This document shows, piece by piece, positions 14,393 through 43,006 of a stretch of DNA of 64,000 nt (positions are counted from its first letter, which is position 1; the number at the start of each line of letters is the position of its first letter). Location of the stretch: positions 2,289,501 through 2,353,500 of the forward strand of contig NW_024468917.1 of the NCBI RefSeq assembly GCF_011745365.1. Reading direction: 5' to 3'. A program made the translations under genes and the position numbers. Source of the DNA: Cryphonectria parasitica EP155. Its lineage: Eukaryota; Ascomycota; Sordariomycetes; Diaporthales; Cryphonectriaceae. The notes below the pieces were generated by a model. That model had not been told where the DNA came from. It searched no databases and saw only the letters and a list, made by a program, of their open reading frames with translations.

Positions 14393-17047
14393 ATGCCATC
14401 AGAAGCTAGTTGCGAACAACCCAAAAAGAAACCGAGACTCGCCAAGTCATGTGAACAATGCCGAAATAGAAAAGTCCGCTGCGATCTACGCTTTCCTTGT
14501 GGGCCTTGCTTGAAGTCGAGGGACCGGCTGAACTGCGCGTACCGGAATAACCCCGGCGACCTCGTTGTTCCTCGCACCGATCCACCACCAAACGAGCATA
14601 CCGCACCCGTCCCTCCTCCTAATCCCCCTGTTCTGTATAATGAAGGCACCTTTGGGGGGTCAACTGGCCGTGGTGAGGATCATGGCTTTGCGCCGCCCGC
14701 CATCACAGGCGCTACCGCCGCTCCTCTCAGCAACGGTCCAGGACATGCTGTCACAAGGCCCCAAGTTTCCCTAGGGGATAAGCCTCTAACGTCTCAGAGT
14801 GAGTTGATCCTGAGGCTCGCGGAACGCATACGGCGTCTTGAGGACCAAGCGGCCAGTTCTCGTCTGGTGCCTAGTGGTGAGACAGACGCCACGGACGGTC
14901 TGCGAGTACAGCCTACCACACCCCGTCTGCGCTGCACACAGGACAAGGTCAGAATGTTTGGCGAGACACATTGGGTCCATACTGCGGAGAAGGTAACTAG
15001 AGACATTGTTATCCCAGGTTGCGTTCATGGCTGATGAAAGCCTGCCAACAAAAAGGTCTTCAATTTCGCCTCTTTTGATGCCGACGTGGAGCCGGACTTG
15101 GGCCAGCACAGAGTAGACATGACGAAGACGTGGAAAGAGCTCAGAAGTCTGCGTTACTCTTTGAAAGCAAAGCAGCAGGCCGAAGCCCCAATAGACCCGT
15201 CAGATCTCAGTCTCTTTCCGCCGCGGAATGTCTGTGATACACTTACAACACATTATCTGCAAAAGTTCGACCGCATGTATCGCATCTTGATTATACCAAA
15301 GTTGAGGGAGCAGACCAACCAATTCTGGAGGGACTCTCAATCTGTTCCCAAGGTCAGTGTCACGTTCATTGCCCCCTCCCCCGTTCCTCCCTCCAATAAG
15401 TCACACCGCCCTGTCTTCATTGAACCTAGCAGTTGCACAGGAGTTCAACTTGCCTGAATAGCACGTATTCCGACAGTGTTTGTTTTCCCAGTATATTGTT
15501 CACCTGCATCCCTATTGGTCATTTCTTGGCTGATGTCGACCTGGCTCTCCACAGTCTTTCGCCATGAAATATGTCCTGATTCTAGCCACCGGAATGCCGT
15601 TTGCGTCCTTTGCTGGATGCATGGATCAGTCAACACGTCAAGCCAGACAATGGATCCACACGGCTCAGTTATGGCTGGCCACAAACGAGAAGTCAACAAT
15701 CAACTTGCAAGGTCTGCAGATTTTTTGCCTGCTCGTCATTGCACGCCAGGTGAATGGTCTCGGACCCTCGCCATATTTCTCTGCCGCTGCTTTGCTCTCG
15801 CTTGCCGTGCGGATGGGTCTCCACCGGGACAAGGACTTCTTTCCAAACCTCTCGCGTGCACAAGCCGAGTTTATGGCTCGGCTATGGTCCACCGTGGTAG
15901 AGCTGGCACTTGTTTCATCGCTCGAAGACGGCACAGTTCCCCTTGTGCAACTTACGCAATGCGACGTGAAGAGGCCATTGGACATGGATGATTCAGAAAT
16001 GACGGATGAGCCTGTTCATGGGCAGTCATACTCTCTTGGTGATCGGGTCACGGACACAACAATCCAGCTGGTACTGCTGCAATCGCAACAACTACGGATC
16101 CGTGTTTTAGAAGTGGTCAACAGAACTGGGCCTAGAGCTTCATACAATACCATCGTGGACCTCACCAATCAGGTGCGAAAGGCTTGCGCGGAGGTGTCAG
16201 CCTTCTTCGCTTCCCACTCAAAAGTACTAGGGCCCGATGCAGATTTTAACCAAAAATACTTGGATATGTATCTTCGCAAGCACATCCTCTTACTTCACCG
16301 ACCCTTCATGCTCGAAGCTCGACAAGATCCGCGCTTCTACCTATCTCGCAAGATTTGCCTTGAGACAAGCATGATCATGGCCTCTTACACCGACGAGCTG
16401 AACCTGCCGTCACCGAATATGAGTGATTTCTCGAGTCTAATGGTTCATGGCTCCGGCCACCTGCGTGGTGGTTTGAGCCTCGATGTCATCATCACTCTTG
16501 CGTTCGAGGTCAACGCACAGCTCCAGGAGGAGGAGAGTACTCTAGGTCCACTTTCAGGTGATCCAGCCCAACAGCTTGCGCAGCAGGCTCGACAGCCCAT
16601 CACGCGCCGACTGGAGCACATCCGGACGCAGCTGTACGAAATCATCGCCAAAGGAAACCCAACCCTCAAAAGGTTCGGCATAACCTCGGCCTTGCTGGCT
16701 CAGATCAAGGCATTGGAGGCAGGTGAAAACGTCAAAAACGCATTCTTTGATGCCATCAAGGATGTTCTGCAGAAATGCACTGAAACACTTCAGGCGTACA
16801 TGGCCAGCCACGAGGCGCTGGCGTTGAGCTCGACTCAGCTATCACCACCGACTTTTGACAATTTTGACTTCGACCTTGGTGACACGGTATGTCTCTTGCA
16901 TGTCCTGAGCGGCTCGTTGGAGAACTTTTTCTACACTCAGATATAGTGATTGCGCTGATTACCATCCAGCTCGAGGAGTCTATGGATCCTCTGCTTTTCT
17001 TCAATCCCGGCGCATACGAAGGGAGCTCAACCGGTTTTTCGTTCTGA
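14393..17047 (+). CDS. Zn2Cys6 fungal transcription factor
   Basis: Exons are 14393-14992, 15056-15352, 15555-16886 and 16970-17047, all in phase 0, giving 768 residues. The binuclear zinc cluster is at residues 20-48 with Cys20, 23, 30, 36, 39 and 48 (spacing 2-6-5-2-8), preceded by a basic stretch KKKPR. A Pro-rich linker and a short coiled-coil (LILRLAERIRRLEDQ) for dimerisation follow. The middle-homology (fungal_trans) region runs from about residue 200 and includes YLQKFDRMYRILIIP and the helical QTLQ-like stretches after LQIFCLLVIA. The last exon adds a 25-residue tail ending GFSF; without it the frame would end at 16946. This should be a nuclear, sequence-specific regulator, commonly of metabolism. 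Its targets are unknown. The 202-base second intron is the least certain border; its acceptor is chosen at CTCCACAG/TCTTTCGCC. Confidence 0.88.
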
Positions 17048-21835: not shown

Positions 21836-22561
21836 CTATCCTTCCACAGCGGCAACAGCCGCAGCATCACCTTTCAGCTCAGCTTCGTTGAATTCCGGGT
21901 CATGTGCCGGCAGTTCAAGATGGAACTTGTACGCCGGCGCCACCTCCACCTTGACTTCGCCATCTGAAACCAGAGCAAGGAGATGGCCTCCCCGCTTCTT
22001 GTCTGCACTGATGAAGTGCAGGTGGTCGCCGGCCACGCTCACGTTCTGCATGTACGCGGGTGAACGAAATCCGATGATCGTTCCCTCAACTGGCTCCTCG
22101 AAAGTCTTGGACGTCTGGTGGGCCCCGACCTCGGTGAGACCTTCGTGAGGCTTGCTCTGTCCACCCACTGTCCGGACTGTGATGCTCTTGAAGACGCCCT
22201 GTATGCGTATGGCAAGATAAATGTTATGGGCGTCCGGGAGGAGAAAATGTAGTAAGCCAAAGAGATCGGCCTTATCTGATAGTACGGCGCCGGTGGTCTG
22301 TTCTGGCTGGAAATGCGTGACCATGGCGAAAGGCGCCACGACCTTGGACGCCGGGCTCACGTCGACCGACGCCACGGTGCCGTCGGACTTCATCTGGTAA
22401 GCCACGCCGTCTAGGACGATCATCTCGCCCACCATGTGCCGAAACGTGCCTAGGCCATGGTCGCCGTGGCTGAGGAGGGTCGAGATTGGCAGGCCTTGGT
22501 CAGCCACGCCATCCATCAACGCGGATACTATGGAGTATTGGAAGATTTCATTTGGTGCCAT
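21836..22561 (-). CDS. alsD: Alpha-acetolactate decarboxylase
   Basis: This is an intronless 241-residue protein that should convert 2-acetolactate to acetoin and CO2. The family features are present in order: HGDHGLGTF (residues 32-40), Glu46 in GEMIVLDG, AIRIQGVFKSITVRTV with Arg119, EGTIIGFRSPAY (159-170), and the metal site HLHF plus GGHLL (His180, His182, His193). In bacterial enzymes the H-x-H and downstream His bind zinc, and Glu and Arg residues at equivalent places act in decarboxylation. Length matches bacterial proteins (about 235-285). The ATG at 22561 is the only Met before the conserved region, and there is no signal or targeting peptide, so it is probably cytosolic. It sits head-to-head with acetolactate synthase, which makes its substrate. 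Yeast lacks this enzyme. Bacterial-type sequence without introns suggests horizontal gain. Confidence 0.93.
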   Translation of the reverse strand: MAPNEIFQYSIVSALMDGVADQGLPISTLLSHGDHGLGTFRHMVGEMIVLDGVAYQMKSDGTVASVDVSPASKVVAPFAMVTHFQPEQTTGAVLSDKADLFGLLHFLLPDAHNIYLAIRIQGVFKSITVRTVGGQSKPHEGLTEVGAHQTSKTFEEPVEGTIIGFRSPAYMQNVSVAGDHLHFISADKKRGGHLLALVSDGEVKVEVAPAYKFHLELPAHDPEFNEAELKGDAAAVAAVEG

Positions 22562-22990
22562 AGTGAAAGGATCGAGAGCAGTCACCAGTCGAGGAAAAGA
22601 GTTGCTGTCGTCGAAACAAAGGGCTGGCCCGTGCACCAAGAACGTATGGAGAGCTTTGATGAAACAAAGAATCCAAGAGGCTATTATGAAGTGGTAAAGC
22701 TGGAGGGACAGATGAGATCTTGTTGGGCAAACGAGGCAGGTGGAGGAGGCAGATGGCGACGTTGTTGAAGGAAGGTGTTGAGAGCATGCTACGATCCTAC
22801 GATGGGAAAGTCGCCGGCAGAGGTTTGCTTAGTCATTTCCGCCCAGCCTTGCCTACTACTCGACGACGTCACGAAAGTTAATTTTTATATCTCACTACAG
22901 CATAGTTTACACAATTCACGACGCTTCAGCTCCAAACAAAAATCTTCTTCTTTTTGGACCAGTGGGAAAACAGACAAATTAACCATCAGG
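22562..22990. promoter_or_regulatory. Shared divergent promoter of acetoin pair
   Basis: These 429 bases separate the two start codons, so both genes must be driven from here. A CRE/ATF-like GACGTCAC lies at 22865-22872 and purine-rich GGAGGAGG-type sequence at 22741-22755. No TATA box is obvious. An in-frame ATG at 22802 would place the right half inside a longer synthase. Confidence 0.6.
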
Positions 22991-24682
22991 ATGTCCTCAG
23001 AAGTGGAAACCGTGGACATCGTGATCGACTCTCTGCGGGCTGCCGGGGTCAAATACGTTTTTGGAGTTCCTGGAGCAAAGATCGACTCGGTCTTCAACGC
23101 CCTCGTCGACCATCCCGAGATCAAACTTATCGTCTGCCGCCATGAGCAGAATGCAGCCTTCATCGCAGGGGCCATTGGCAAGATTACAGGTCGGCCAGGG
23201 GTCTGCATTGCGACCTCAGGTCCTGGCACGAGCAACCTTGTCACGGGCCTGGTGACGGCCAACGACGAGGGAGCTCCCGTGGTCGCCATCGTGGGCAGTG
23301 TCCAGCGGTCGCAGGCTGCGAAGCGCACCCACCAGAGCCTGCAGGCTGTCGCCCTGTTGAGGCCCGTCACCAAGAAGGTCACCGCTGCCGTGGTCGAGGA
23401 CCAGGTGTCGGAAATCATGCTAGATGCCTTCCGCGTGGCTGCTGCCATCCCGCAGGGAGCTACTGTTGTGAGCCTGCCAATCGATATCATGACGGCAGGC
23501 CACAAGTCCTCGATGCCTGCTGCGCCGGCTCACGCGTTTATCCCGCCTGCGTATGGACCATCCTCCGAAGCAGCCCTGGCTGAAGCGGCTAAGCTGATCA
23601 GCCAGGCCAAGTTCCCAGTGCTCTTTCTGGGCATGCGAGGTGCAGATCAGAACGTGGTCGATGCAGTCCATGGATTTCTAAGAAAATACCCCATCCCAGT
23701 CGTAGAGACCTTCCAGGCAGCGGGTGCCATCTCTCAGGAACTGGTTCATCTCTTCTACGGACGTATTGGGCTCTTCCGCAACCAGCCGGGCGACCAGATG
23801 ATCAGGCACTCGGACCTTGTGATCACTGTGGGGTACGACCAGGCAGAATACGACGCCAACCAGTGGAATATCGAGGGACATAGCTTGCCCATTATTCACA
23901 TGGACACTAACCAGGCCGCTATGAGCGTGTCCTACAGCCCCAAGCTGGAGCTTATCGGCTCAATGGCTGACAACCTGGCCGCGCTTACCGACAGAGTCAC
24001 CACGGTAACGCGCCCCCAAGACACCCAAGTTGGCCAGTCTATCTACAAGACCTTCCACGAGTGGGAGACCGGCGCGAAAGCCCAGGGAACCGTCAATCCG
24101 AAGGGCCCTGTACATCCTCTCCACTTCATCAGGTTGCTACAGGGAATGATTACCACTAGCACAACCGTGACCAGCGACGTGGGAAGTCTATACATATGGC
24201 TCTCTCGCTTCTTTTACTCGTACGCACCAAAGACATTCCTGGTCAGCAACGCGCAGCAGACACTAGGTGTCGCCCTGCCGTGGGCCATCGGCGCATCATT
24301 GGTCCACGGCCCCGAGCAGAAGGTAGTAAGCGTAAGCGGCGACGGCGGCTTTCTGTTTAGCGGACAGGAGCTGGTAACAGCCGTGCAGCAGGGCTGCAAT
24401 ATCACACACTTCATATGGAACGACGGCAAGTATAACATGGTCGAGTTCCAGGAGGTTGACAAGTATGGTCGGAGTGCAGGCGTCGACCTGGGCGGTGTGG
24501 ATTTTGTCAAGTACGCAGAGGCCTTCGGGGCAAAGGGTCTAAGGGCAACCTCATCCGAAGAGATTGAGAGTGTGATGAAGGAGGCATTGGCATACAAGGG
24601 GGTCTGCGTGGTGGACATCGTGATTGACTACTCGGACAATCATGAACTCATGGCGAATGTGATAGCGGGCAGTATATCATGA
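22991..24682 (+). CDS. alsS: Acetolactate synthase, catabolic (AlsS/BudB) type
   Basis: This is an intronless ThDP enzyme of 563 residues that should join two pyruvates into 2-acetolactate. The N-terminal Pyr domain has GVPGAKIDSVFNAL and the activating Glu52 in CRHEQNAAF. The central domain follows. The PP domain holds QTLGVALPWAIGASLV and the ThDP motif from GDGGFLFSG (450-458) to WND (476-478). KRTHQSL and GRIGLFRNQPGD are typical of the bacterial fermentative AlsS/BudB group, which does not need FAD, rather than fungal mitochondrial Ilv2. Length fits AlsS (about 560-570). With start 22991 there is no targeting peptide, so it is probably cytosolic. The frame stays open upstream to an ATG at 22802, adding 63 residues with a Ser/Arg-rich RRFSS stretch that could be a presequence. 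It pairs with the adjacent decarboxylase. Confidence 0.94.
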   Translation: MSSEVETVDIVIDSLRAAGVKYVFGVPGAKIDSVFNALVDHPEIKLIVCRHEQNAAFIAGAIGKITGRPGVCIATSGPGTSNLVTGLVTANDEGAPVVAIVGSVQRSQAAKRTHQSLQAVALLRPVTKKVTAAVVEDQVSEIMLDAFRVAAAIPQGATVVSLPIDIMTAGHKSSMPAAPAHAFIPPAYGPSSEAALAEAAKLISQAKFPVLFLGMRGADQNVVDAVHGFLRKYPIPVVETFQAAGAISQELVHLFYGRIGLFRNQPGDQMIRHSDLVITVGYDQAEYDANQWNIEGHSLPIIHMDTNQAAMSVSYSPKLELIGSMADNLAALTDRVTTVTRPQDTQVGQSIYKTFHEWETGAKAQGTVNPKGPVHPLHFIRLLQGMITTSTTVTSDVGSLYIWLSRFFYSYAPKTFLVSNAQQTLGVALPWAIGASLVHGPEQKVVSVSGDGGFLFSGQELVTAVQQGCNITHFIWNDGKYNMVEFQEVDKYGRSAGVDLGGVDFVKYAEAFGAKGLRATSSEEIESVMKEALAYKGVCVVDIVIDYSDNHELMANVIAGSIS

Positions 24683-27710: not shown

Positions 27711-28463
27711 TCAAACCCCCTCAGAAATCTCCACAATAATATTCGCCAGCTGTTCCGGCTTCGAGAGCATGGGCGAGTGTCCCGCCGCGATGTTCTTCAC
27801 CTCCGAACCAGCAGCCTGGGCAAACCGTTCCTGCACAGGCGGGGGCAGAGCCGGGTCGGCCGTGCAGACCACATACGTCGACGGCACATAAGAGTAGGCA
27901 CAGCGCGTGAGCACGGTATCGAGGACCCCAGCGCTCTGCACGGTCATCCTGTCCACCAGAGACGCAGCCTCTTCAGGCGGCAGGTCGTTGTAGATGAGCG
28001 CGCGCGGGTCTAGCATCCTGATGCGCCCGTCCTCGATCGTGTGGTTGGGACTGTCCCTCATCGCGGCGCCGATGGACTGGCCTGGCGGCATTACGAACGC
28101 CGCGACGTAGATGAAATGCGCGACGCCGCCCGCGAGGAGGCCGCGGTGCTCACGGCTGCTCAGTGTCAGCTCCTCCGGCACGGCCTCTGCGCCCACGAGG
28201 CCGCCGTAGGAGTGCATGACCACGACTACCTTCTTAGCCTCGTCCTGGACGAGTCTTTGGAGGGCGGCCTCGATGACTGCGCTGTCGTCTGCCAGGGTCT
28301 TTTGCGGGAAGTCGGGTTGGTCTTGGCCTGTGAGGCTGGGTAGTTCTGGCTGGACGACCCCGAAGCCGCGGGACTCTAGCAGTTTGACGAATGGGCTGTA
28401 GACGTCGGGTCGCTGGAATGAGCCCTGGATTAGGAGGATGGTTGGGTGAGCAGGGGGACTCAT
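27711..28463 (-). CDS. Alpha/beta hydrolase
   Basis: This is a single-exon protein of 250 residues with no signal peptide. It starts with a beta strand and oxyanion loop (TILLIQGSF). The nucleophile elbow is HSYGG (Ser about residue 86), the acid is probably the Asp in CTADPALPP, and the catalytic His is in AGHSPML near the C-terminus. Sequence and length resemble AB hydrolase family 6 / plant methylesterase-like proteins, which cleave small esters, lactones or amides. The physiological substrate is unknown. The ATG at 28463 directly precedes the conserved strand. Its neighbour on the other side of a 1-kb gap is a P450 on the opposite strand; a shared pathway is possible but not shown. Confidence 0.85.
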   Translation of the reverse strand: MSPPAHPTILLIQGSFQRPDVYSPFVKLLESRGFGVVQPELPSLTGQDQPDFPQKTLADDSAVIEAALQRLVQDEAKKVVVVMHSYGGLVGAEAVPEELTLSSREHRGLLAGGVAHFIYVAAFVMPPGQSIGAAMRDSPNHTIEDGRIRMLDPRALIYNDLPPEEAASLVDRMTVQSAGVLDTVLTRCAYSYVPSTYVVCTADPALPPPVQERFAQAAGSEVKNIAAGHSPMLSKPEQLANIIVEISEGV

Positions 28464-29486
28464 GGTGAGTAGTTATGTGGTAAGTGGAGATAGGCGACTT
28501 GTAGAAGCTGAGAGGAGATGGAGGTTTGGGAATGATATCTGTCTGCTGTTGCGAGATCACGAACAACGGTTTGCTCAATGTATGACAGATCAAGGAGATG
28601 TTTACAAAGCGGTGATACTCATGCATTATTAATGAATTGTAGGCTGTGTACAGCACCCCTAGCCAGGAACTGTTGGATCGAAGGATTTCTGGTGTCGGCA
28701 TGCTAGGCATAGTCTTTATTGGATAATAGTGGTTATACTGGGGACCCATAAGCACTAAAGAGCCAGCATTCATAATTCTCATCGGTTATCATAGCAAGGG
28801 CCTGAATCCAAGCACTGGCAGCATTGAGAAGGAGGTTGTAAGGAATAGAACATATTCCCGCTTTCTTTCTTAGGTAACCAGTGCAAGTGCTACTGTGAAA
28901 TATACAATCTAGTTGGAGATAAATAATTGCTAAGGATTGTCGAAAGCGAGAGCAGATGCCAGCTGGTGAATTCCTTGTAATTACTGTAATCAAGTGTGTG
29001 TAAGTAGGCAGAGCACACTTGCTGGCTGGCACGATGCTGGCCTCTATTGTCCACCAATCACGCGGGACCACCACAACACTCAATCCATAAGTTGCTTTAC
29101 AGGCCACAGCGTTGTCGTCCCTCCCTAATTCAGATGGACCCATATAGGTTTAAGTAAAGATAGCGTCAATGTACTATATGAACTAAACACTAACCCCTAC
29201 TGGGAAGTTAATACGACCTGAGACGGACCAGCGTATATGTACTATGATACCATGATAGGTTGAGAACGCCACTGTCCATCTCTCGTTCGTCTATAGTGGC
29301 CCAAACCCCGCGAATCTCTAGATTCATGATATCACATTCTAAACCCACAAAGAGAGAGAGAGAGAGAGAGAGAAAACGTTTGCTTCGAAGTGACTATCAC
29401 CAGAGAAATATTGTGGACTGCCGTTGCTGTGTTGTCTGCCTTGTCAGTGACAAGATTGAAGGAAGTCATATATACACAGTTACACC
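28464..29486. other. Divergent intergenic region
   Basis: This stretch holds the promoters of the hydrolase and the P450. It contains a (GA)n tract (29351-29373) and a CATATATACA box about 20 bases before the P450 ATG. No gene is seen. Confidence 0.55.
29351..29373. repeat. (GA)n microsatellite
   Basis: About eleven AG units are seen directly, 110 bases before the P450 start codon. Confidence 0.95.
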
Positions 29487-31322
29487 ATGTGGACTGAAAA
29501 CATGCCTGGCTGGCTGGAAAACCAGCAGCGCAACCCCACGACACCTGCTACACTCACCGTCCTCCTTCTCCTCTCCTTCCTCACCCTCGCCATCGGCAGC
29601 ACCCTCCTCACAGCCTTCACCTGCCCCGTCCGCTCCCTACCTGGACCATGGTACACAGCCTTCACCCACCTCGTGCTCAAATACCACATCATCGCAGGCC
29701 GCCGTATCTACTACGTCGACGCCCTCCACGCTAGATACGGCCCCATCGTCCGCATCACCCCCTCCGAAGCCTCCATAGCTGACCCAGCTGCCGCGCAGGC
29801 CATCCACAAGCCCGGCAGCGGTTTTACCAAGTCCGCCTGGTACGAGATGCTCGTGACAGCCGGCCGACCCGAACTCGCGGCGCGCATCGGCGTGTTTGCG
29901 CTACGCGACCCAGCACGCCATGCCGTACGGCGTAAGTTATTTGCGCGGCCGTTCAGCCTGTCGAGCCTGCGGGAGAATATGGAGGGTGTGGTGAGGGAGA
30001 GGGGGGAGCTTGCAGTGCGGCGGATCCGGGAGGAGGCTGCCGGTAGTGGTGCCGGTGGGGTGGCGGATGCGCTGAAGTGGTGGACGCTCATGGCGACGGA
30101 TGTTATTGCGCAGTTTTGCTTTGGGGAGAACTTTGCGTCGTTGGATGTTGGCAAGGTGAGTCGCTCCTTGGTCTATGAGAAGGAGGAGGAGGAAAGATCA
30201 ATTGCTTGATAATGCAGAAACCTCGAGTTGAGATGTTGACGTGGGAATCTAGCAAACGCCTTTTATCGATGCCCTCCAAAGGATGCTCATCTGCAACTTG
30301 CTGCTGGGCGAGTTCCCTCTGCTGAACTGGGTCGGCCCGTATCTGCCCATTCGATCTATCCAGCGCCTCTTCGAAGCAGATCGCATTGTGTTCGACCATG
30401 GATCTATAGGTTGGTCTTTGCTTCCTCTTCTGCTTCTTCTTCTTCTTCTGTGCTTGTGAGCGATTCCAGATCATGTAAGCATGACAGACTGACCACTTCC
30501 AATAATCATCAAGCCATCAAAAACATGCGCAGCGCTTCTGGAAACATGCGCAGCCTCTTCGGCCAGGCCCTCGTCCAAGCCGACAGCGCCGAACAGAGCC
30601 AACTCACCGACGACACGGTGCGCCACGAGGCGGCCAACCTCATTCTGGCCGGCGCAGACACGACGGCATTGACACTGACGTACCTCCTCTGGTCTGTGCT
30701 CAAGCGCCCCGACCTGCGGGCTGCGCTCGAGGAGGAGGTCGCGGGGCTCAGCGGAGGGTTGACCCACGAGGAGCTGGTAGATGCCAGGCTGCTGAACAGC
30801 ATCATCGACGAGACTCTGCGTCTGTACACCCCTGCACCCAGCGGGCTGCAGCGTGATGTCCCGGCTGGGGGCCAGACGCTTTGTGGCATGTACATTCCGG
30901 CGGGCGTTGTGGTGTCCACGCAGGCGTACACGCTACATCGAGACCCAAAGGTCTTTGAAGATCCGCTCGAGTAAGTTCTGAGGATGGATGATGGTGACAG
31001 GGGCCATTTTCCCAAGCTGCCAGCAGCAGCTCATCGGCTGGGATGACTTGTGCTGACCAGACACAAAAAACAAGGTTCGATGGCTGGCGGTTCGTGAAGC
31101 AGCCAGCGACAGAAGGCTTCCCTTATGCCCTTTGGCGCGGGGACGCGTCTCTGTCTTGGCATCCACCTCTCCATGATGGAGCTCCGCATCGCCACAGCTC
31201 TGTTCTTCAGGAAGTGCCGCGGTGCGCGGTTGGCTGCCGACATGACGGACGAGAAGATGGTGATGGTCGAACACTTTCTCGTTGCGCCGAAGGGGCATTG
31301 TTGTCATATTGTCCTTTCCTGA
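29487..31322 (+). CDS. Cytochrome P450 with apparent frameshift before heme motif
   Basis: Exons are 29487-30155, 30253-30409, 30514-30970 and 31075-31322, about 510 residues. A membrane anchor (residues about 20-42) is followed by the Pro-rich hinge RSLPGPWY. The I-helix ILAGADTTALTLTYLLW, the ExxR helix (DETLR) and EFDGWRF are all in one frame. The heme motif FGAGTRLCLGIHLSMMELR is intact but lies in the +1 frame, starting at ATG 31125. The shift must fall between 31098 and 31124, because the second frame has a TGA at 31095-31097. One extra base (or two lost) explains it, and no intron of normal size fits. The rest of the frame to TGA 31322 looks normal. This is either a young pseudogene, an assembly error or a strain lesion. 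Were it intact, it would be an ER monooxygenase of unknown substrate. Confidence 0.85.
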
Positions 31323-33503
31323 GGAGAAAAGTGGAAGAAGCAATTGCTATGTTTGGGCGCAGCATAAACGAAGTCGAGTGCGTTCCGAGGCCGAACACTC
31401 TGTCTGCAGAGCAATACCAACAGGAGACACTGAGATCATTGGAAGGCGTTGGAATGCTGAAGATGACACATAAAGCAGGATATTTCAGCTATACTTCAGT
31501 TACAAAGATGGACGCGAAGAGGGAAAGAAAGAGATTATACGAGGGACCTTTTAAAGATAGAAATTGAAGCCGCGACGGTAAGGGCAGACGAACACATCCA
31601 GAACGTAATCAGGGGGCCCATACTGCACCACCTGTGGCGTCAGCCTCGCGCCCAAATGTCGTCAGCTGGTTCGTCTAGAACCACGCGTTCCTGTTTGGGA
31701 AGCTGGCAGCCTCGTCACAATAACGAGGTCATGGCGCCCAAGGTGGTGTAAATAAGCAATAGTATCTCATATCAACTGGCCAGAGCCTCGAGCGATCACA
31801 GGCAGGCTCTCATTGTGAATAATCGTAACGGTCCAGAGCAAGTAGGCATAGTGCAACATTCGTCTGGCTTCTGTACATGTCCAACGGTGGTCAACCCGCG
31901 AGCGAAACTACAAACTACCGCGGTGCCCTCCCCTCCTGTCGTGGCAGAAGAGAGCATGGCGAGCCTCACGGCCCATAGTAGCCATTCCGCTCTGACGCGT
32001 GGATCTGACTCCGATGAAGGAAGCATGAACTTTTGACCATTCCAACTCTGTGAGGAATGAGTGGCCACCGTTGTCGCGACTTGAAGACGCAGGGGGATGG
32101 ATTTCGACCAACGGGTTGCCGACTCTTGGAGGGTTGCACGGTGGCGGAACGATGCTATGATTCCTTCCTTGCTATATTTTCAGCACCAACCTGGCCCAGG
32201 CGTGCGCCAAAGATTGGTACGGCTCCAGTGCACAACTGGCAGCTGGGGGTTCCCGGTACGACCGGACAAGACAATAGAGCGGGGTGGGTGAGTGCATGAA
32301 CAAGTGTCAGTCACCGCTCCCGTGTCATGAGAGGACAGAAGAACCAGCTTGGTACAAAAATTTGCCACACTCCAGTGTGTACACCATGATCAGTGTGGCA
32401 CCAATGGCGAGGTGTCCAGGGGAACATGGTTTCTAGTGGTCCGGATGCCAGCATGCCGGTGTGTTCGTCGAGGTCAGTGACCGACTCCAGGGATAGGTTG
32501 GTAGCGAGAGCGGTCCTCTTCCCAACCTCGCTCATCCACCCTCAAACCAAGTTGGCGAGCGTGAAGAAGAGCAGGCTCATTCATCTCTGACGTGGCAGTT
32601 CAGATTACTCAGGTCTTTCTCTCTGGTGAGGCCATGGTGGAGGCGAATCCGACCGGAAAGAACTGTCCAGGTGTTTTGTTTGGTAAAACATGGAACAGAT
32701 TCGGAAGCCAGCAGGGCACTGACCCGATGGTTTTAACGTGAAAGAAGTTCTGGCCGATGAGAGGGTGGATTGTGGGCGCCAGAGATGGGATGGAACCAAA
32801 GTTGTTGCAACATGATTTGATGTGTCCCAGGGCACGCTCTCGCTCATGTTCTTCCGGGCGCTAATGAGACGAAAGAATGTCTGCGCTTCAAGGGCGTCGC
32901 AGGCGCGCCTCATGTGTGGTATCGACTCAACCTGGCTCTGGCTAGTTGGATGGCCATTCATGCTTGTTTTTCTTCTTGAAAAATAATCGGAAAAGATGGA
33001 GATTGACAACTCAGCAGGTGGTGCAGGATCAGTGGATCTGGGCCTGGTGGTTCAGGTTCCTTTAGGCGCATTGCCATGAGGCCGAAGGTGTAGCCCCAGG
33101 TATTACTGCTGTACCAAATACGGTAGCACTACCGTACCGCCAGCAACGATGACACCCAACGGCGGTCATCTGGTGATTGGATGCTGAGATAGGACGATTT
33201 GGTCCACCTGAGGCAGTGGCTCGTGCCTCACGCTACGGGAGGGTCGGAGACAAGGGGGTTCACAAGCTGCTTGAGATTTTCTCCTTGTGGTCCCCAAAAT
33301 GCAACACCAGTGCTCGTTAGGCTAGGCTGGGCATAGGCTGAGCAGGGCAGGGGCTAAGTTGCATGTGGGGGTACAACCTGATAAACAGCAACGGCGCTGG
33401 AGAATACGTACATAGGATTCATAACATGGTGCTATAGACTGTTATGGACTACGTATTAGTGGTGCTATAGTACGAATATGCATAGGCAGGAAACAGGAGA
33501 TGG

Positions 33504-33510
<7 letters not shown>

Positions 33511-33536
<26 letters not shown>
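33511..33536. repeat. (AG)n microsatellite
   Basis: About thirteen AG units are seen directly in intergenic DNA. Confidence 0.95.
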
Positions 33537-33735
33537 CATGAGAGGCGAAGAGCCCACCCCCCTCCCCTCCAACAGGGGAACAGCACTGAAAATAGGAAAC
33601 AAATTAAACTGCAGTTTATGCCGAGAGTGTGCGGGTCTTGGCGAGGACCCGTTCATCTGATCAACTTGGTTGAGTGGTTCAAGGATGATTCAATTCAATG
33701 TGCCGATCTTCTTGGGTCTCGACTGGAGTGGAGAT

Positions 33736-33753
33736 AGAGAGAGAGAGAGAGAG
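33736..33753. repeat. (GA)n microsatellite
   Basis: About nine GA units are seen directly, 200 bases after another tract of the same motif. Confidence 0.9.
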
Positions 33754-36263
33754 GCAGACAGGAGAGGGATTTCGCGATAAACAAATGATCGTCGCTGGCC
33801 GACGTTAGGGCCAGGATAAAACATGCCCAGCGCAGAAAAGACGCAAGCAGTTCACAAAGCACTATATAGAATTTGCAAGAAAGGAAATAGGAGATTTGGC
33901 ATGCGCCTGCCAAATCGGAAATTATCGTCGACCCGATGCTCTGTCTGCGTGCAAAATATGGAATGGTCATCTGGATTTCCATTCCTCGTGTGACAGGGAA
34001 GATGTCAACGTCAAAGCATAAAGACGGTGGAGATGCTCAAAGAGGCAGTGCTGGAATGCTCCTTTCTCCTCTTGGCTCCCTCAAAATGAAGTTCGCTTCA
34101 TTGAGAGGAGAGAGAGACTGGGAGTTGGGCGGTATCGAGTGGGAATTTGCCTTGTTTCACCTGGCCAGAAATGGCAATGGCTCGGCTAGTGCAAGGTACC
34201 AACTTAAAATCCTAGCGGCAGACGGCACGAAGGGGAGCCAGTCCCGTCGAGGCAAGGTTGAGGGGGTACCATAGCAATGTCGAGGGGTGAGTCCCCTTCA
34301 TCAATCGAGCCGCAACAACGGTGCTCTGTCCTCGACGTCTAAGCCTCATGTCGACTCCATCCACTTTGGCCCTCCCCTGTCTCCTTCCTTTCCCCTCTCT
34401 CCTTCACCTTCAATTCTATGTCAAACCATGTCTCTTGCACCTTTGACCGTCTCTAGAACGTTGAATCAGGGCCAGCCTTGTGCGATCGGGTTCGGTGGGG
34501 TATGGTCAAGTTCTCTCGATCTTATAAGACTGAGCTCGGCTGGAGCTCTAGCTTATGCATGCCTCAGCTTCTGCGGCTTCTTGCTGCCATGGATTGAGTC
34601 CTGGTGTCCATTTCCTTTACTCTTGAAAAAAGAAAGAAAGAACGGGCCCCTACACAAGCAAAAGAGAAGGGGAAAAAAACCGGCAATCTATTGTGGTTGG
34701 GTTGCCAAGTCTTCAACACCACTCAAAAGCCGCGATGCTTTCTCACTAAGATCTACAATGCAATATCGGTTTTATCAAGTTCCGACCGAGATAACTAACC
34801 GTACAGGCTAGGCTCGCAGGACTAGCTTGGCTACCTGCCTCCTATGGATAGAGCTTACGTGCGCCTACAGAGTATCATTATCATTATCCGCTTGGTCGTC
34901 GTTCTCTTTCTTTTGCTTCTGTCTTCTTGCCATGCACGGTGGAGGATGGGGCTGTTGAGGTGCCAGCCAGTATGCGGTCTGAACCCAAGGCGGTCAGGCA
35001 AGACACGTCACTGCAGATATCGCACCCATGCAGTGGGAAAGATGTGGTGGCACTGGTCTACTGCTCTGGATTGATCCGGCTTCAAAGTACTGCAGTATCG
35101 CCCAGAAGCATTCCGATATCAGACGTGATCATATTTGAGATCTTCTCTTTTGTGCCCCAGATCATCGCATCTCCATATTGTATCTCCGATCACGCACACA
35201 GATCAGAGAGGAAGATCATCGCAACAGCCTTGGGTTGGGAAGAGTCTGCTTTTTTTGGAGGTGGGGTGGACCTCTGGCTCTGTTTGCGCTTCCAGACTTG
35301 ATTCCCTGTTTTCATTGACTCTTGTCCATGCACGATCCGGTTAACCGTTTGGTCTTGCTGGCCTTGGAGCCCACTTACTGAGGCTCCCAATCACGACATG
35401 CCACAGGCGCAGTTTCCCCCCCAGCTACCTTGGTACAGCGAGCATTGGGCAGGCACACTGGCAAGCAGTCGTGGCTGCCATGTATGTACATGGTATCTAG
35501 CACTCTGGCTTTTTCCTGCAGGCGCTTCCCACCCCTGCTGTGTATGCACTGGAACCACAGTCGTCAAAGCTCCACCACCAGACGTTCGGAATATTCATCC
35601 ATAGCCACTACGACTGCATCCCGGCAAGGCAAGGTCTGGGTCAGGGGTTTTCGTGATACATGGTCCTCCTTGTCCTCCCACGCTGGCATTCCTCCCACCA
35701 CTGTGGTGACCCCCTGCGTTTCTCCTATCCTACAATATATATCCTAGTGGGTCGACATGTGGTAACGTTTTTTTATGTCTTCTTCTCCCTGGTTTTTTTT
35801 GGATCTGCCTGTAATAGTAGAGTCACTTCTGTTCTGGTATTCTCTCTTTCATGCTGCTGTATCGGTTGCATTGCTGAGCAATTACTTCCGATATACGGTC
35901 GTTTTCATTCTTTCGTTTCCACACTCGCTCCATTCCTTCCTTCCTTGACTCTTTCTTCGTCCGCGCTGGACCTGACTTTGACTACAAATCTCTTCTTTCT
36001 CCCTCTTTCTTTCTCTTCACGATAACTCAGGTCAAGAATTCAGCAGGAGGCACGTCGCCCCATGATAGCCAGTCTATCAAGTCGAACTCCAACCAATTTC
36101 TCCTGACTTCTCATCAAACTCTTCCCCCCCGCGACCAGTCTTTTTCTACAACTGGTTTTTGCAGGACCACTCCCTTTTTGTGCTGTGTCCCTGGCACATA
36201 TTAAGAGGACAACAACCACATCGCCCCCCTCAGAGCATCCCCCTGTCCGAAACCACGTCAAAG

Positions 36264-37297
36264 ATGCGTACACGGACATCTGCTCTTGCGGCGGCGGCGC
36301 TGCCGGCCCTGGTTGCTGCCGGCACAGTCCCTACCTACTCTGGAATGTCTGTCGTATGGTCTGCAGATTTTGAGGGTGACGCAGGGGACTCAGTAAATAC
36401 CGATGTTTGGAATATTGCCACATGTGAGTCAGGAAAGAGATAGGCGCTTTAAACATCCCTCCCCCCCCCCCCCCAAAAAAAAAAAAACCCAAAAAAAACC
36501 CCCCCAAGGATCTCTTCTAGATTTCTGACCGTCTCCCAAATAGCGATCGATACGAACGCCGAGGTGCAGAGCTACACTACTGCAGCTGCCAACCTGCAGC
36601 TCTCTGGAGGAGGTACTGTGCAGTTCGTGCCCTGGAAATCGAATTCCGGGTCCTGGACCTCTGGGCGCATTGAGACCAAGACGACATGGACGCCATCGGC
36701 CGGGGCCATCATGCGGGTCGAGGCCTCTGCACGTACAGGCGGCGATGCCTCGGCAAATGCCCAGGGGATGTGGCCGGCGATCTGGATGTTGGGCGACAGT
36801 ATCAGACATGGCACGGGTTGGCCACAATGTGGCGAGATCGACATCATGGAGATGGTCAACGGAATCGACACTGCGTACGGCACAATTCACTGCACAGCTG
36901 CGATCTGTGACCCAGATACGAGTGCAGGCTATCAAGGCAGCACGACCACGGACGATAACTGGCACACTTACAGCGTGACGATCGACCGGACGAGCAATGA
37001 CTGGGAGACGGAGTCTATCAACTTCATGAAGGACAACACCACATATTTCACGGCGACGGGTGCGGAAATCGGTGACGAGGCTGTATGGGGTGCGTTGGCT
37101 CACTCACCACTGTACATGATCATCAACCTAGCCGTCGGCGGCTCGTGTAAGTTTAACTTTCTGGGTGGGAGAGGGGAAAGGGCTGTCGGAATCAAGGCTA
37201 AAGTTATCCTACAGGGCCTGGCGATCCCAACTCTTCGACGCTTGATGGCTATGGGAACATGCTCGAGGTTGAATACGCTGCCGTATACTCCAGTTGA
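36264..37297 (+). CDS. GH16 endo-1,3(4)-beta-glucanase
   Basis: Exons are 36264-36423, 36544-37146 and 37215-37297, giving 281 residues to the TGA at 37295. A signal peptide (ALAAAALPALVAAG) leads to a GH16 jelly roll. The catalytic motif GEIDIME carries Glu151, Asp153 and Glu156 with the normal E-x-D-x-x-E spacing. SGRIETKTTW, MWPAIWMLGD, the AVGGSWPGDP loop and a closing MLEVEYAAVY strand are also present. These secreted retaining enzymes cut beta-1,3/1,4-glucans and serve in wall remodelling or plant glucan use. After the TGA the same frame stays open for 231 codons and is Ser/Thr-rich, like the GPI-linked tails of this group, so the TGA may be read through or be a mutation. The first intron holds C14 then A13. 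Confidence 0.92.
36424..36543 (+). other. Intron with C14-A13 tract
   Basis: This is the first intron of the GH16 gene, 120 bases. Fourteen C (36461-36474) begin 37 bases after the donor, followed by thirteen A and further C and A runs. A TTTCTGAC branch-like site precedes the acceptor. Confidence 0.75.
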
Positions 37298-37993
37298 CTC
37301 GCGGACTCCCCGTCCGACGATCCCGCTGCCCCGACAAGCACGGGCTCCGACTCGAGCTCCACCAGTGCTGTTAGCAGTACCGTCGACACCGCCACCACCA
37401 CTGTGGCCACCACGGCCACTACGGTCGTTAGCGCCACGGCATCTTCATCTTCAGTTGCTTCCGCATCTGTCACGGTGTTGACCTCGTCGCAGTACTCTAC
37501 CACACTCTTGTCTACAACAACATCAGCGGCCGCAACCTCGTCGGTCGGGGGGACATCTATAGCCTCAGCAGCCTCTTCCGAGTCCACCATGACGCTACCA
37601 GGAGACTCCTCATCCAACAGCACTACTTTTAACCCCTACGAATGTCTATGCAGTGGCGCCAGCTCTCTTCGATTAGACTTTGGACTGGGTTCATTCCTCT
37701 CACACGTCAGACTGTTCGATCTCGGCCTTCTACTTGGGACAGCCGAACACGACGACAGCAACCATCCAACAGCCAAGCAGTCAGCACCATATGAGCGAAA
37801 ATCTGGTCGGCCTGGTCAAAGGCAACATACAACTCAATCTCGCGGCTCACGTGAGCCAAGGCCTCGAAATACGACGATATGGAACGGCTTTTTTTCTGCA
37901 GCCTACAGGCTGCTAGACGACGTACGCCTGGTCATAGCCATGACCATCACGGCGTCGCCTATTTTATTTACCATTCTGGTACAACTTTTATGA
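37298..37993 (+). other. In-frame Ser/Thr-rich extension beyond GH16 stop
   Basis: Directly after TGA-CTC the GH16 frame continues to a stop at 37991-37993. About 110 codons are strongly Ser/Thr/Ala/Val-rich (TGSDSSSTSAVSSTV-like), the composition of O-glycosylated stalks of GPI-anchored wall enzymes. The last 20 residues are hydrophobic (VIAMTITASPILFTILVQLL), resembling a GPI-attachment signal. The middle part (about 37640-37900) looks less like coding sequence and may hide an intron or decay. Confidence 0.55.
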
Positions 37994-38582
37994 GCGATGA
38001 TCATCATAACTTGCTCTGCATTTGAGAGCACATTTGTTTCTGCGGGATACCTGGGGGTTTATACATTGGCAAACTAGATACCACTTCTTAACACTTTAAA
38101 GTTACTATTTTGAGAATAGGATATTCTACCGTTCTCGCTCTTACAACACATCTTCACGTCTTTTGAAACCAAAGGGCCAATTTGACTCCTCGTAGGGTCT
38201 ATTATAAATGTGAATGGCTTGCAAACCAAGTGCAGTTGTGGCTGGCTGTCAGCAGTTTTATATTGAGTTCGAAGTAACGAGATGACTTGCAGGAAGCAGG
38301 GGGCCCATTGGCCGGGTGAGGCGGCGCCACTCCCGCAGTGCCCCCTGAAAGTGCCAACAGTAGCTTACACGAGGCTGCAAGGGTTGTTGCTTCCCAAATT
38401 GCAAGAGATGGAATAAACTTTGATGCTTCTAAGGAAAGTCTCTTTATCCTGTTACCACCAGAGAACTCCTATCTGTATGCAAGGTATTGTTACAGCAACG
38501 AATAAAAAGAGATGACAGAAAGAACAAAGACAAAGAAATATCCTACAAACCACCTCGTTCAACATGTCCTCGCTATTGCTCA
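37994..38582. other. Convergent intergenic region
   Basis: This gap lies between the glucanase and the second P450. No gene or repeat is visible; both terminators should lie here. Confidence 0.55.
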
Positions 38583-40548
38583 TCATGCCTTGACCTCCGT
38601 CTCCTCCTCAAAACCACCCTCACAGTACTCCAAAAAGTCCACCTCGGGTGTCCTGGCCCTGCACAACAACATCTGCCTCGAGTCCGGCATCATCTGGAAG
38701 TTCATGTACAGCTCGGGCAGGGGCTCGCCCTTGGCCTCCTCAGGCAGAGCAAAGTCGTAGTTGAGCAGCATGTAGGCAAACATGAGCTTCATGCTGTTGG
38801 AGGCAAAGAAGCGGCCGGGGCAGGCGTGCAGGCCGTGGCCGAACATGGTCATCTCGGGCGAGGTGGTGACGGTCTGGTACTTGTTCTCGTTGCTAGGGCT
38901 GGAGGCGCGCAGGCGGAAGAACCGGAGGCCGTCGAACTTGTCGGGGTCGGCGTGGACGGCCGGGTTGAGCATGGGCGGGGGGGACATCATCAGGTAGGCG
39001 CCCTTGGGGATTTGCGTGCCGTCGCTGAAGGTGATGTCCTGCTGGGCTACACGAGGCATGTTTGCTGGTTTGGTTGGGTTTCAAAGGTCAGTCAAATCGT
39101 CCCCAAACTTAAAAGTACATACTTTACTGCCGTTGAGCCTTCTTGATGTTTGAAGGAGGGGTTTGCTCGCAGCCAATGGAACTCACCATTCAGCCCTGGG
39201 TGGATCCTCAGGCTCTCCCGGATGAAGCTATCCATCTTCTTCAGCTTGAAGAGCATATTCTTGTCGATCTGGCCCGTCTCGGCCAGCACCGCCACCACCT
39301 CGTCCCGCAGCTCCTGCACATACTCGGGGTAGCACGCCGCGTCCAGCAGCAGGTAGCCCACAGCGCGCGACGTGGAGTTCATGCTGGCCATGGCGAGCGC
39401 GATCTCCATGACGCCCACGTCAGGCAGCGGCTGGCGCTTTGCCGAGGCCGCCGCGACAAGCCAGTCCACCGAGTCCAGGACCTTTCTGCGCGGGGCGCCG
39501 AACCGCCGGATCTCGTCGAGCCGCCTCTCGACCTCTGGGTTGATGAGCGCGCGCGCCTGCCGGACCTCGTCGCGGATGCGGCGGCACTCGGGCAGGACCC
39601 AGTGGAGCAGCGGCCGCAGCAGGGCCGGGAGGGCGTTGAGCCTCTGCACGGCGCGGAAGACGTCGGTCGCGTACGAGGTCGAGATGGCCTGCCACTCTGG
39701 GTCGTCGGCCAGCTTGGGCCCCAGGAAGATGCGCGACGTCTGGCGGGCCACGCAGTGCTGCACCGCAGTCTTGAGGTTGATCTTGGTCCACTCCTTGGGC
39801 CGGCCTATGTATAGGTCGCATGTCTGAGGGAGGGCACGCGCCAGAGGGTCGATTGTGAGGGCTGTTTTATGTTGGAGGGGGTGGGTGTGCAGTGTCAGCA
39901 GAGGAATATTAACAACTTTTGTTAATTGGTGAGTTGGAGGGAAGGGAGAAGAAGCCTTACCTAGAACTCCAGGGAGCTGTTTCTTGAGGGCGTTCTGGAG
40001 GATCTCGCCGTTACTTGCAGGGCTGAACCCCTCGAAGCCGGGATAGGTTGCGTAGAAGTCCTTGACGATGAAGGCACTGAAATCAAGCGCGGGCAGGTTC
40101 TTGTACTCGTCCAGGTACCGTGGAGGTACAATCACCTTGGCACCAGACTGGGTGAAATCATTGACCCGGAAAATGCGGTCCTTGTACTACCAGCACAGTG
40201 AAAATGAAGAGAGAGTGTGTGTTAGCAATGATATCCAGGTGCCGTGCCAGAATGTTGAATGATTTGTCCTCGCCAAGCATCAACTCAGAAGGTCTGGAAT
40301 GATGATGAAAGACTAACCAACTCATAGCCCTTCTCCAACAGTCTGCTCGCGTTCGTCCTGAACTCCGCCTGGGCCTTGGGACCGCCGCCGGGGTTGACAA
40401 TGGGGAACTTTCTGAGTCTCCATGCCAGCATCTGTTGTCGGATCCAGTCGCTAGCCAGTACCAATATCAGGACCACGACAGCGACCACGGCGGCTCTAAT
40501 ATGCCAGTCGGGAGATAGAATTGTCTGAAAGCTATCGAGATGCATCAT
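38583..40548 (-). CDS. Cytochrome P450, fungal secondary-metabolism type
   Basis: On the minus strand the exons are 40548-40318, 40186-39961, 39861-39187 and 39064-38583, giving 537 residues with agreeing phases. A membrane anchor lies at about residues 18-34. The ExxR motif is ESLR after SFIR. The heme loop is FGHGLHACPGRFFA with Cys459 as ligand. The I-helix centre reads MASMNSTSRA in place of the common AGxDT; a Thr/Ser pair is kept, as in the ent-kaurene oxidase-like fungal P450s (IHTTS type), to which the His-Gly-Leu-His heme loop also points. It should be an ER-bound hydroxylase or oxidase of a terpenoid or other secondary metabolite; the substrate is unknown. No terpene cyclase, PKS or NRPS is seen nearby. 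An (AT)n box lies about 150 bases upstream. Confidence 0.93.
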
Positions 40549-42116
40549 GTCGAATGTAGGTGAAGAAGGCGAGAATAATCAATTTGTGTTGTGTACACCC
40601 AAAAAATCAGTGTAGCTTATTGTTTAAACATGGGCTGAACAAATTCTTGTTTGAAATCCAAAGAGAAAAGTTACTGCCGCGTGGATTCTTTCTTCAATAT
40701 ATATATATATTATATATACGAAGAAGACAATACAAAAGAGTGAAGAACGGATTGCTAGAAGAGTCCGTTCGAATTGAAGCATGAAGTAGGTGAGTCCTGA
40801 GAGACATGACAGAATGAGTAAAACCGAATACGAAACAACAAGTCTCGCTATTCAAGAAGATGCCCCAAAAAAGTCAAATACCATAGTAGACGGTCTAGTG
40901 GCGGCAGTGTTGAGGTGTCTAAAAACACCAAAAAAGGCCAGATTCTACAAGTCAACCACGTCACATTTCTCTACTTGAGAGTTATCTTTGGAACGAATAC
41001 TGTCAATTCCCAGAATGCATTGCAATATACCGTACTTGAAATTCAAAAATAAGGAAAGGCAAAACCATGAGAGAAGAAAGGAATTAAGAACGGCGTCAGG
41101 GCCACAGCAACACCGGTGCTTACAGTAAGTATGGGGGATGAAGTGAAGCTACAGGGCGCAGGACAACTTCAAGCCAGCAGTCTCTACTACCCAATGAGGT
41201 TCTGTAAACTAGTTATCAGCCACCTCAAGGCCCCAAAGTGGGAGAGGAGGTTCGGCTGACCCAAGCTGCCGGGTAGTTCCCAGTTAGGACATCAGCCCCG
41301 GCACTCTCCAGATTACTGCTTCCATAGAGAGCGATTCCGAGTGCGAAGTTTATACCGAGCAGTTCACCTCCCTTACTGCCAGTTCGTCCACGTTGATTTT
41401 AGGTTTTGGTCGCCTCTGGAATATTTACACAGCCTCGGGGCGAGAAGAACACGTGTGGGGCTTTTCAAATATGGATGAAGCGAGGCAATCGAATCAACCT
41501 CCAAGCTTACACGACAACCAGCATGAGGGAGGGAGTAATCCGATTGCGAGAGCTCTACCGACGGACACTATCATCACGGAACCTATTCGCTCAGCGTTAT
41601 AAAAGACATTCCAAGAAGTGACCAATGGCATGAACCCAATCCTACAGTTGCTGGCATCGTGGGTGACCTGACTCAATAATCAGTGATCTCATTGGGCCAA
41701 AAGCTGCTCAAGCTGGCCTGATTGGTGGATAACATGCCTCCCTCTTGAGTGAGCAAGGTACGGGATCGCAAAAGGCTCTCTACCATGCCTGCAACTCGAT
41801 TGGTTTTGTCAAGGGGCGCCACTGCGATGATAGAAATCAGGAACGACTGGGGCCCCGCATGCAGCTAAATGATGTTCCGAGGCATTAGCGGGGTGTAGTC
41901 TGCACGAGCAAGCGAGAGACGACTGGTGGTGGAGCATGAGACCGTCGCCAGGTTCTCAGGAGCACGTCCGCCTTGCCGCACGATAATTTAGCAATGTATA
42001 GCCCATCGCAAGGCATCTGGAACCCCCAACGCCTCTTCACACACACACCACCGACTTTGCTCCATCCTAGCTTTGCGCCCGCGAAACTAACACAGAAATA
42101 TGGGTTTATCTACCGA
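40549..42116. other. Intergenic region, no supported gene
   Basis: This is the promoter side of the P450 and the 3' flank of the next gene. An (AT)n tract at 40697-40719 is the only clear feature. A run of short plus-strand frames at 40790-40980 and 41390-41620 has no motif. Confidence 0.55.
40697..40719. repeat. (AT)n tract upstream of P450
   Basis: Alternating AT is interrupted once (ATATATATATTATATATA), about 150 bases before the minus-strand P450 ATG. It could act as a TATA-type promoter element or simply be a microsatellite. Confidence 0.7.
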
Positions 42117-43006
42117 CTAAGGGAGGTTCGAGTCCTGCAAAAGCTCTCCCAGCTGAACAAGGGTCCTCTCATAGATCCTAGCAACATCCATGTAGAGGTC
42201 TTCATCTTCATCTTCCCAGTTGGGGTCAACGAAACCTCTGTCCTCAGTAGCACTGTCTGTGATGTCGGCATCGGTGTCGGCTTCCGTGTCCGTATTCATG
42301 TTATCGGAATCGTCCTCGTCCATGTCGACCAGGGGCGCACTCTGTTGGTTCATGAACTCAACGACGAGAACCCTCGTCTGTTCAACTATGCTCTTGCACC
42401 GCACCATGTGCGTCTTAGTCATGACGCCCCGGACACTGTTCTCGAAGCCCGGCAGCGTCTCTCCGGTATCGATATCTCGTCCCGAGAGGAGACTAGCAAA
42501 GCAAAAATCGAGCTTTCGGAATGTTGAAAACATCGCTGTGGGCTGTGGAGGAAAGCGTGTGATCCATTCGGTGAAGTCGTTGGCGACGTTAAGGAGGTAA
42601 GGTATCTGCAGGTTTGCTACAAAAAGGGCATCTATATCAGCAAGTCGACCTTCTGCTGCAAAAGAAGAGTTTCAAGTTCAACCAGGTCTGTCTTACGGGT
42701 GCCAGAAAGCCATAATACGTCGAGAAGCCCCTCGACGTCCTTGCACAGCTCACCCAGATTCTTATACCCCACCACGTCGTCGCCAGCGCCGGGTGTCTCG
42801 AACTTCTTGACAAATCGCCGGTTGATTGACATAAGCTGGTTCTCAACGTAGCTTCTGACCTTTTCTTCCTTGGCTGAGCCTGCGCGCAATGGGTGCGATC
42901 GAGGATGTGGCAGTCCAGACGTCGGGCGCGTCGAGGCTCCGCTGGGCGCAGGCGATGGTAGGGACTTGTGCGGCAGAAAGCCGCCAGGCAGAGATGCGTC
43001 AGCCAT
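42117..43006 (-). CDS. Conserved fungal protein of unknown function
   Basis: On the minus strand the exons are 43006-42697 and 42616-42117, giving 269 residues. The 80-base intron uses a GTAAGA donor and joins SGTP|NLQIPYLLN in phase. After a Pro/Ser-rich start comes a helical domain: VRSYVENQLMSINRRFVKKF, then LQIPYLLNVANDFTEWITRF and LDFCFASLLSG. A stretch before residue 240 is very acidic (DMDEDDSDNMNTD and EDEDEDLYMD), and the protein ends in a helix (RTLVQLGELLQD). The sequence reads like a conserved nuclear protein, but I do not recognise the family. It is divergent from the probable tom6 gene across 335 bases. The first ATG is at 43006; the frame extends a little upstream only through TTG. 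Confidence 0.75.

Follow-up and report, generated by a model that had tools for sequence, protein, structure and literature searches.

The window analysed here is a stretch of 64,000 nucleotides of the Cryphonectria parasitica EP155 genome, running from 2289501 to 2353500 on contig C9, in which an alpha-acetolactate decarboxylase (ALDC) gene and a gene for a catabolic-type acetolactate synthase (AlsS) lie head to head, both without introns (Table 1). The genome comprises 43.8 Mb in 17 contigs, and the contig that carries the pair measures 2.92 Mb. The flanking genes read as fungal, with Zn2Cys6 and Fungal_trans segments and a P450 split over open frames. Enzymes of bacterial type encoded by intronless genes might be thought to come from bacterial DNA contaminating the assembly, a practically negligible possibility that was rejected given the fungal flanks, the size of the contig and the 88% identity of AlsS to that of Gnomoniopsis smithogilvyi (Diaporthales).

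Table 1. Coordinates of the gene pair and of the sequence that separates it (positions in the window)
Feature	Position	Strand	Properties and supporting matches
Alpha-acetolactate decarboxylase (ALDC, AlsD/BudA type)	21836..22561	-	726 bp, 241 aa, no intron; start ATG at 22561, stop at 21836; PF03306, TIGR01252, PDB ALDC chains
Gap between both start codons	22562..22990	.	429 bp
Catabolic AlsS-type acetolactate synthase	22991..24682	+	1692 bp, 563 aa, no intron; start ATG at 22991, stop at 24682; NF006378, TIGR02418, trees

Longer open frames were rejected for both genes. The TTG-started ALDC frame of 267 aa is 26 aa too long: counting that of the window, 105 of the 120 proteins in the list share the same six-residue lead before FQYS. 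The GTG-started AlsS frame of 635 aa is also too long: only 7 or 9 residues precede the first conserved motif in 65 of 120 listed proteins, in a comparison whose pattern left 38 of the 120 unscored. Longer leads occur in 8 of the 120 and are, by eye, unlike the upstream frame of the window. An in-frame ATG at 22802 would provide AlsS with an Arg/Ser-rich leader of 63 aa, a possible mitochondrial signal, and was rejected as the main start, as it has no counterpart in the eight long-lead relatives; a minor form of AlsS might still be initiated there.

The ALDC protein matched PF03306 (252 bits, cut-off 25) and TIGR01252 (190 bits, cut-off 180.65) over its full length in profile searches, and solved ALDC chains came top when it was searched against the PDB (best E 1.3e-39). 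Residues E46, R130, H180, H182, H193 and E240, which we take from the roles assigned in the Brevibacillus brevis enzyme to be the three metal-binding His, the active-site Glu and Arg and the C-terminal Glu, are aligned and conserved: all 80 bacterial loci have them, as do 150-152 of the 152 proteins in the list, among which that of the window is counted. Each His is present in all 80 bacterial loci and in 151 of the 152 listed proteins, so that translation and alignment agree with a preliminary description of the locus, which had pointed to His 180, 182 and 193 as the metal site. A search of the whole genome gave one ALDC match.

AlsS scored well above the cut-offs of the two catabolic models, NF006378 (721 bits, cut-off 510) and TIGR02418 (688 bits, cut-off 551), and below that of the biosynthetic model TIGR00118 (287 bits, cut-off 538). 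Solved AlsS chains came top in the PDB search, and the two AlsS signatures singled out earlier, KRTHQSL and GRIGLFRNQPGD, are both found in the translation. The curated models were also passed by all six relatives tested (three ALDC and three AlsS). Chance resemblance is excluded because the PF03306, TIGR02418 and NF006378 scores lie far above the cut-offs, and structure prediction was unneeded because the solved chains of both enzymes had already given decisive sequence matches. The gene models and curated cut-offs thus bear out the preliminary description on the identities of the two acetoin pathway enzymes, on their intronless head-to-head arrangement and, with the 2.92-Mb contig and fungal-type flanks, on the unlikelihood of contamination.

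The mitochondrial Ilv2/Ilv6 acetohydroxyacid synthase makes the same intermediate, acetolactate, from pyruvate and serves valine synthesis, whereas enzymes of the AlsS family make it without FAD or a regulatory subunit, and need no Ilv6-type partner. A separate Ilv2-type gene, which the preliminary description had expected elsewhere in the genome, is present at C3:1442352-1444040 (741 bits, the only one of nine genome matches above the TIGR00118 cut-off), and a match to the regulatory small-subunit model lies on contig C4 (169.5 bits, above cut-off). AlsS and Ilv2 belong to a common ThDP superfamily and are 26% identical in this genome, as might be expected if AlsS were a duplicate of mitochondrial Ilv2 and the pair had arisen within fungi around an old valine enzyme. 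The profile scores argue against such a duplication (688-721 bits with the AlsS models compared with 287 bits with the biosynthetic one), and so do the trees. In careful trees, which contained 14 of the 35 fungal AlsS rows of the quick tree as well as the genome's own Ilv2, fungal AlsS joined bacterial AlsS in a tree with AHAS-type outgroups (34 rows, 100/100; 99 in the quick tree), and Ilv2 joined bacterial AHAS-like rows (100/98 and 99/99). A tree constrained to unite fungal AlsS with Ilv2 in one clade was 276 log units worse and was rejected (p-AU 0.0013), in an analysis from which one long-branch paralogue of the genome, presumably a pyruvate decarboxylase from the way it reads, had been removed. 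The duplication is thus refuted under the model used and is extremely improbable; a grouping of AlsS with Ilv2, which had been named beforehand as evidence against bacterial gain, was not observed.

Both proteins have numerous relatives in fungi. Every named organism among the best 120 of 1485 ALDC matches and the best 120 of 7984 AlsS matches is a filamentous ascomycete. Most are Sordariomycetes (Colletotrichum, Fusarium, Coniochaeta, Podospora, Trichoderma, Diaporthe and others) and two, Aaosphaeria and Paraphoma, are Dothideomycetes; the class was looked up for three of the named organisms and is our assumption for the remaining ones. A second ALDC search, started from Aaosphaeria, yielded further representatives of these genera, and no additional group, among the best 120 of 834 matches. 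The closest clusters listed are 80% (ALDC) and 90% (AlsS) identical to the window, and the closest named fungi 78% (over 83% of the length) and 88%, respectively. The nearest named AlsS relatives among the matches listed are Gnomoniopsis, placed in the Diaporthales by lookup, and Coniella, Diaporthe, Discula and Cytospora, which we take to belong to the same order. The preliminary description, which had expected few fungal relatives, does not hold on this point.

The two genes are linked in many of these relatives. At least 41 of 120 ALDC clusters, the window's own included, lie on a contig of exactly the same size as that of an AlsS cluster, a count that is a lower bound as each cluster is represented by its longest contig only. 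When sizes were jittered by up to 10% as a control, the mean number of coincidences was 0.17 and the highest 2 in 2000 trials. Eight of the 41 shared contigs measure less than 15 kb, down to 3737 bp, and ALDC and AlsS are therefore close neighbours on them. Among the 30 ALDC rows nearest to the window, itself included, the contig is shared with AlsS in 18 of the 26 cases in which it measures 3 kb or more. In Colletotrichum fioriniae, the proteins that passed the same models carry consecutive locus tags (COL5a_000369 and COL5a_000370), have the same contig size and are 65% (ALDC) and 72% (AlsS) identical to those of the window. The distance matrices of the 41 pairs are correlated (Mantel r 0.871; none of 2000 permutations as high, the highest being 0.337), as joint vertical descent alone would also lead one to expect. 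From these sequence comparisons, the ALDC/AlsS pair appears to be old and widespread in filamentous ascomycetes.

Phylogenetic analysis placed each protein in one fungal group. The ALDC quick tree contained 32 of 120 listed proteins (25 from named fungi, 6 assigned as fungal by their place in the tree only, and the window's), all 80 bacterial loci and two PDB fragments, and had no outgroup; all 32 fungal rows fell on one side of a branch with an SH-aLRT support of 100. The AlsS quick tree contained 35 of 120 listed proteins (29 from named fungi, 5 assigned as fungal by their place in the tree only, and the window's), all on one side of a branch with the same support; in the careful tree, the 14 fungal rows were together (100/100). 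For the quick tree, 81 loci whose AlsS hit had an E of 1e-15 or better were reduced to 55 by dropping seven short sequences (<480 aa: three bacterial, L032, L040 and L066; one partial sequence from the genome itself; and three pieces of its Ilv2, which is thus absent from this tree), ten exact duplicates, seven Mycobacterium rows to thin that genus and two copies of the window's own AlsS. In both quick trees, most of the genera and orders with several members are intact, although there are exceptions. The fungal group sits on a long stem in each of these trees (1.23 changes per column for ALDC, 1.1 for AlsS), and long-branch warnings apply to all trees. Bacterial AlsS formed its own clade in 5% of 200 bootstrap trees, and a bacterial clade sister to fungal AlsS was not rejected (p-AU 0.195).

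The bacterial relatives found are distant. The highest bacterial ALDC identity is 45%, among the best 80 of at least 559 confirmed loci from a scan in which each of 84,980 prokaryote species was represented by one genome. In genomes sampled from four phyla and one family (199, 246, 249, 149 and 98 genomes, with 4, 1, 3, 0 and 5 matches, respectively, at E 1e-120 or better), the highest AlsS identity is 51%; each sample included its centre genome, scoring covered the best candidates of every genome, and the set of 149 genomes, which gave no match, had no positive control. Closer bacterial AlsS may exist beyond the sampled genomes. A scan of viral contigs with AlsS returned one pattern match and no relative.

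In bacteria, the same two enzyme families (TIGR02418 and TIGR01252) are neighbours in alsSD/budAB operons. At 47 of the 80 bacterial ALDC loci, some of which are truncated by the end of a contig, tblastn found AlsS in the fetched flank (E of 1e-20 or better). It is on the same strand in all 47, ahead of ALDC in 25 and behind it in 22, and in 46 of them the matched stretches are separated by 53-192 bp. This arrangement would be consistent with a recent transfer of an alsSD operon from bacteria into C. parasitica or its near kin, followed by re-wiring in place. Such a recent transfer is refuted by the many fungal relatives in the best-120 lists, which cover many genera of Sordariomycetes and two of Dothideomycetes, and by the single fungal group formed by each protein; in addition, the best bacterial identities found (45% and 51%) compare with 80% and 90% for the closest clusters among the matches listed. 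We therefore regard a recent transfer as very improbable.

A bacterial origin of the pair nevertheless remains likely from its distribution, the event being old; a wider vertical spread among eukaryotes or early fungi might instead account for it. The gain from bacteria put forward in the preliminary description is supported as regards the kinship of AlsS with bacterial AlsS over Ilv2 (100/100; p-AU 0.0013), and is unsupported as regards the few fungal relatives. Fungal AlsS lies within the catabolic AlsS clade, as one fungal group on a long stem. In the available parts of a study of Pezizomycotina, anomalous phylogenies resembling interkingdom transfer made up only 1.5% of 521 (PMC11898892), a figure that was weighed against bacterial transfer; the words acetolactate, acetoin and decarboxylase are absent from its main text, as far as this was available.

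Unlike the bacterial operons, with which it shares 45-51% identity at best among those found, the C. parasitica pair is not co-directional; the genes are on opposite strands with separate starts 429 bp apart. The gap must hold both promoters and both 5' untranslated regions, unless these reach into the genes. Its GC content is 0.473, compared with 0.574-0.577 in the two genes. It contains no CCAAT; CreA-like SYGGRG strings occur twice, at 22700 and 22740, which is about the chance expectation, and no motif was singled out. By its arrangement, the gap is possibly a shared divergent promoter, and the step from operon to bidirectional promoter proposed earlier is tentatively suggested by this one fungal locus; the qualitatively different qRT-PCR profiles of the Penicillium digitatum pair (PMC10269557) speak against it. 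In a fuller scenario, an early filamentous ascomycete would have captured a bacterial acetoin operon once and whole. The two genes would have been turned head to head, and selection would then have kept them linked, in the Sordariomycetes and in further groups, as a metabolic cluster of two genes distinct from valine synthesis. We propose this scenario tentatively, and consider it rather unlikely as a whole.

As for function, it is quite probable that the pair constitutes a two-step route from pyruvate to acetoin, made up of old fungal groups that are most likely bacterial in source. The ThDP-dependent AlsS is predicted to join two pyruvates into alpha-acetolactate, with release of CO2, and the metal-dependent ALDC would then decarboxylate alpha-acetolactate to acetoin. 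As neither AlsS nor ALDC has a conserved targeting peptide, both are probably cytosolic and separate from valine synthesis by Ilv2/Ilv6. The two genes would most likely have been acquired from bacteria by an ancestor of the filamentous ascomycetes, and would have been inherited together since, often as neighbours. Baker's yeast, to our knowledge, has no acetolactate decarboxylase. The yeast-based picture is corrected by these observations, as direct acetoin production appears to be within reach of many filamentous ascomycetes, among them plant-associated genera; this bears on fungal volatiles, on pyruvate overflow and on the frequency with which pairs of bacterial genes are acquired and kept together. 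The interest thus lies in a corrected view of fungal acetoin metabolism, and not in any novelty of the C. parasitica genome.

A two-gene acetoin route in a fungus is already known from Penicillium digitatum, according to the available parts of the report, in which PDIG_14840 (ALS) and PDIG_14850 (ALD) are consecutive genes assigned by the authors to the acetoin pathway (PMC10269557). Likened by description, these are the same two enzymes in another filamentous ascomycete, and the P. digitatum genes differ from the C. parasitica pair in belonging to a five-gene cluster that responds to the antifungal protein AfpB (PMC10269557). Single and double knockouts of ALS and ALD were made; in the parts available, they are described as having a 2-fold higher MIC of AfpB, unchanged growth on PDA and no infection phenotype (PMC10269557). 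The physiological role of the pair may therefore be minor, since the knockouts showed no difference in growth on PDA and no infection phenotype. Acetoin or butanediol output, pH control and pyruvate overflow, the roles put forward in the preliminary description, are hypothetical. Among the open-licence literature matches listed, no account was found of the evolutionary history and wide linkage of the fungal pair.

The P. digitatum data also bear on whether the two enzymes work together. ALDC might instead drain acetolactate leaking from valine synthesis, or a similar acid, and AlsS might catalyse another carboligation, their neighbourhood being a by-product of an old linkage. This is consistent with the qualitatively different qRT-PCR profiles of the two P. 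digitatum genes, as reported in the available parts (PMC10269557), and with Cytospora mali, in which the listed ALDC and AlsS clusters are on different contigs; each cluster is represented by one contig, and the two may come from different assemblies. On the other hand, contigs of the same size are shared in at least 41 of 120 ALDC clusters, and in P. digitatum, again from the available parts, AfpB induces and represses both genes under shared conditions, and its MIC is about 2-fold higher whether one gene or both are deleted (PMC10269557). Separate functions are thus unlikely, and the joint route to acetoin is the reading that we prefer.

A further step from acetoin to butanediol, which had been suggested for the pair, is unsupported within the scope of an SDR model searched genome-wide and one zinc-type neighbour. 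For a butanediol dehydrogenase partner of the SDR type, the genome gave 18 matches to TIGR02415, none above the cut-off (best 172 of 304 bits). The neighbour, a zinc-type alcohol dehydrogenase encoded on the minus strand about 20 kb from the pair (44317-45390), resembles numerous alcohol dehydrogenases, and none of the 60 matches listed is a butanediol enzyme. In the available parts of an engineering paper on Fusarium oxysporum, acetolactate occurs in the reference list only (PMC4854878). The ALDC protein itself appears in a P. digitatum proteome table, in the part of that article available (PMC8775614).

The alpha-acetolactate decarboxylase gene (ALDC) and the catabolic acetolactate synthase gene (AlsS) may have been exchanged between fungi, as hinted by three sequence comparisons; misassigned sequences are a possible alternative. 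In the quick AlsS tree, the Trichoderma asperellum protein grouped with those of the Dothideomycetes Aaosphaeria and Paraphoma, and the Colletotrichum group enclosed Stachybotrys elegans AlsS. The Aaosphaeria ALDC was 76% identical to one from Fusarium oxysporum (among the best 120 of 834 matches to the Aaosphaeria query).

In Cytospora mali, the AlsS clusters and an ALDC were found on different contigs among the matches listed, so the neighbouring pair may have been broken or replaced in this species; these contigs possibly come from different assemblies. This ALDC was 55% identical and grouped with Coniochaeta in the quick ALDC tree.

The frame open upstream of AlsS would encode an Arg/Ser-rich stretch that looks like a mitochondrial leader; no counterpart of it was seen in the listed relatives. 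On the ALDC side, the transcription factor gene, which is separated from the ALDC end by about 5 kb, is by its position a candidate regulator. The P450, hydrolase and dehydrogenase genes downstream of AlsS possibly form a metabolic cluster (27711-45390).

Features around the ALDC and AlsS genes (window positions)
Feature	Position	Remark
Transcription factor gene	14393-16946	Zn2Cys6 and Fungal_trans segments
Open frame 5' of AlsS	22802-22990	in-frame ATG
Alpha/beta hydrolase	27711-28463	
Cytochrome P450 segments	29487-30971	two frames, fits introns
Cytochrome P450 segment	39092-40135	
Zinc-type alcohol dehydrogenase	44317-45390
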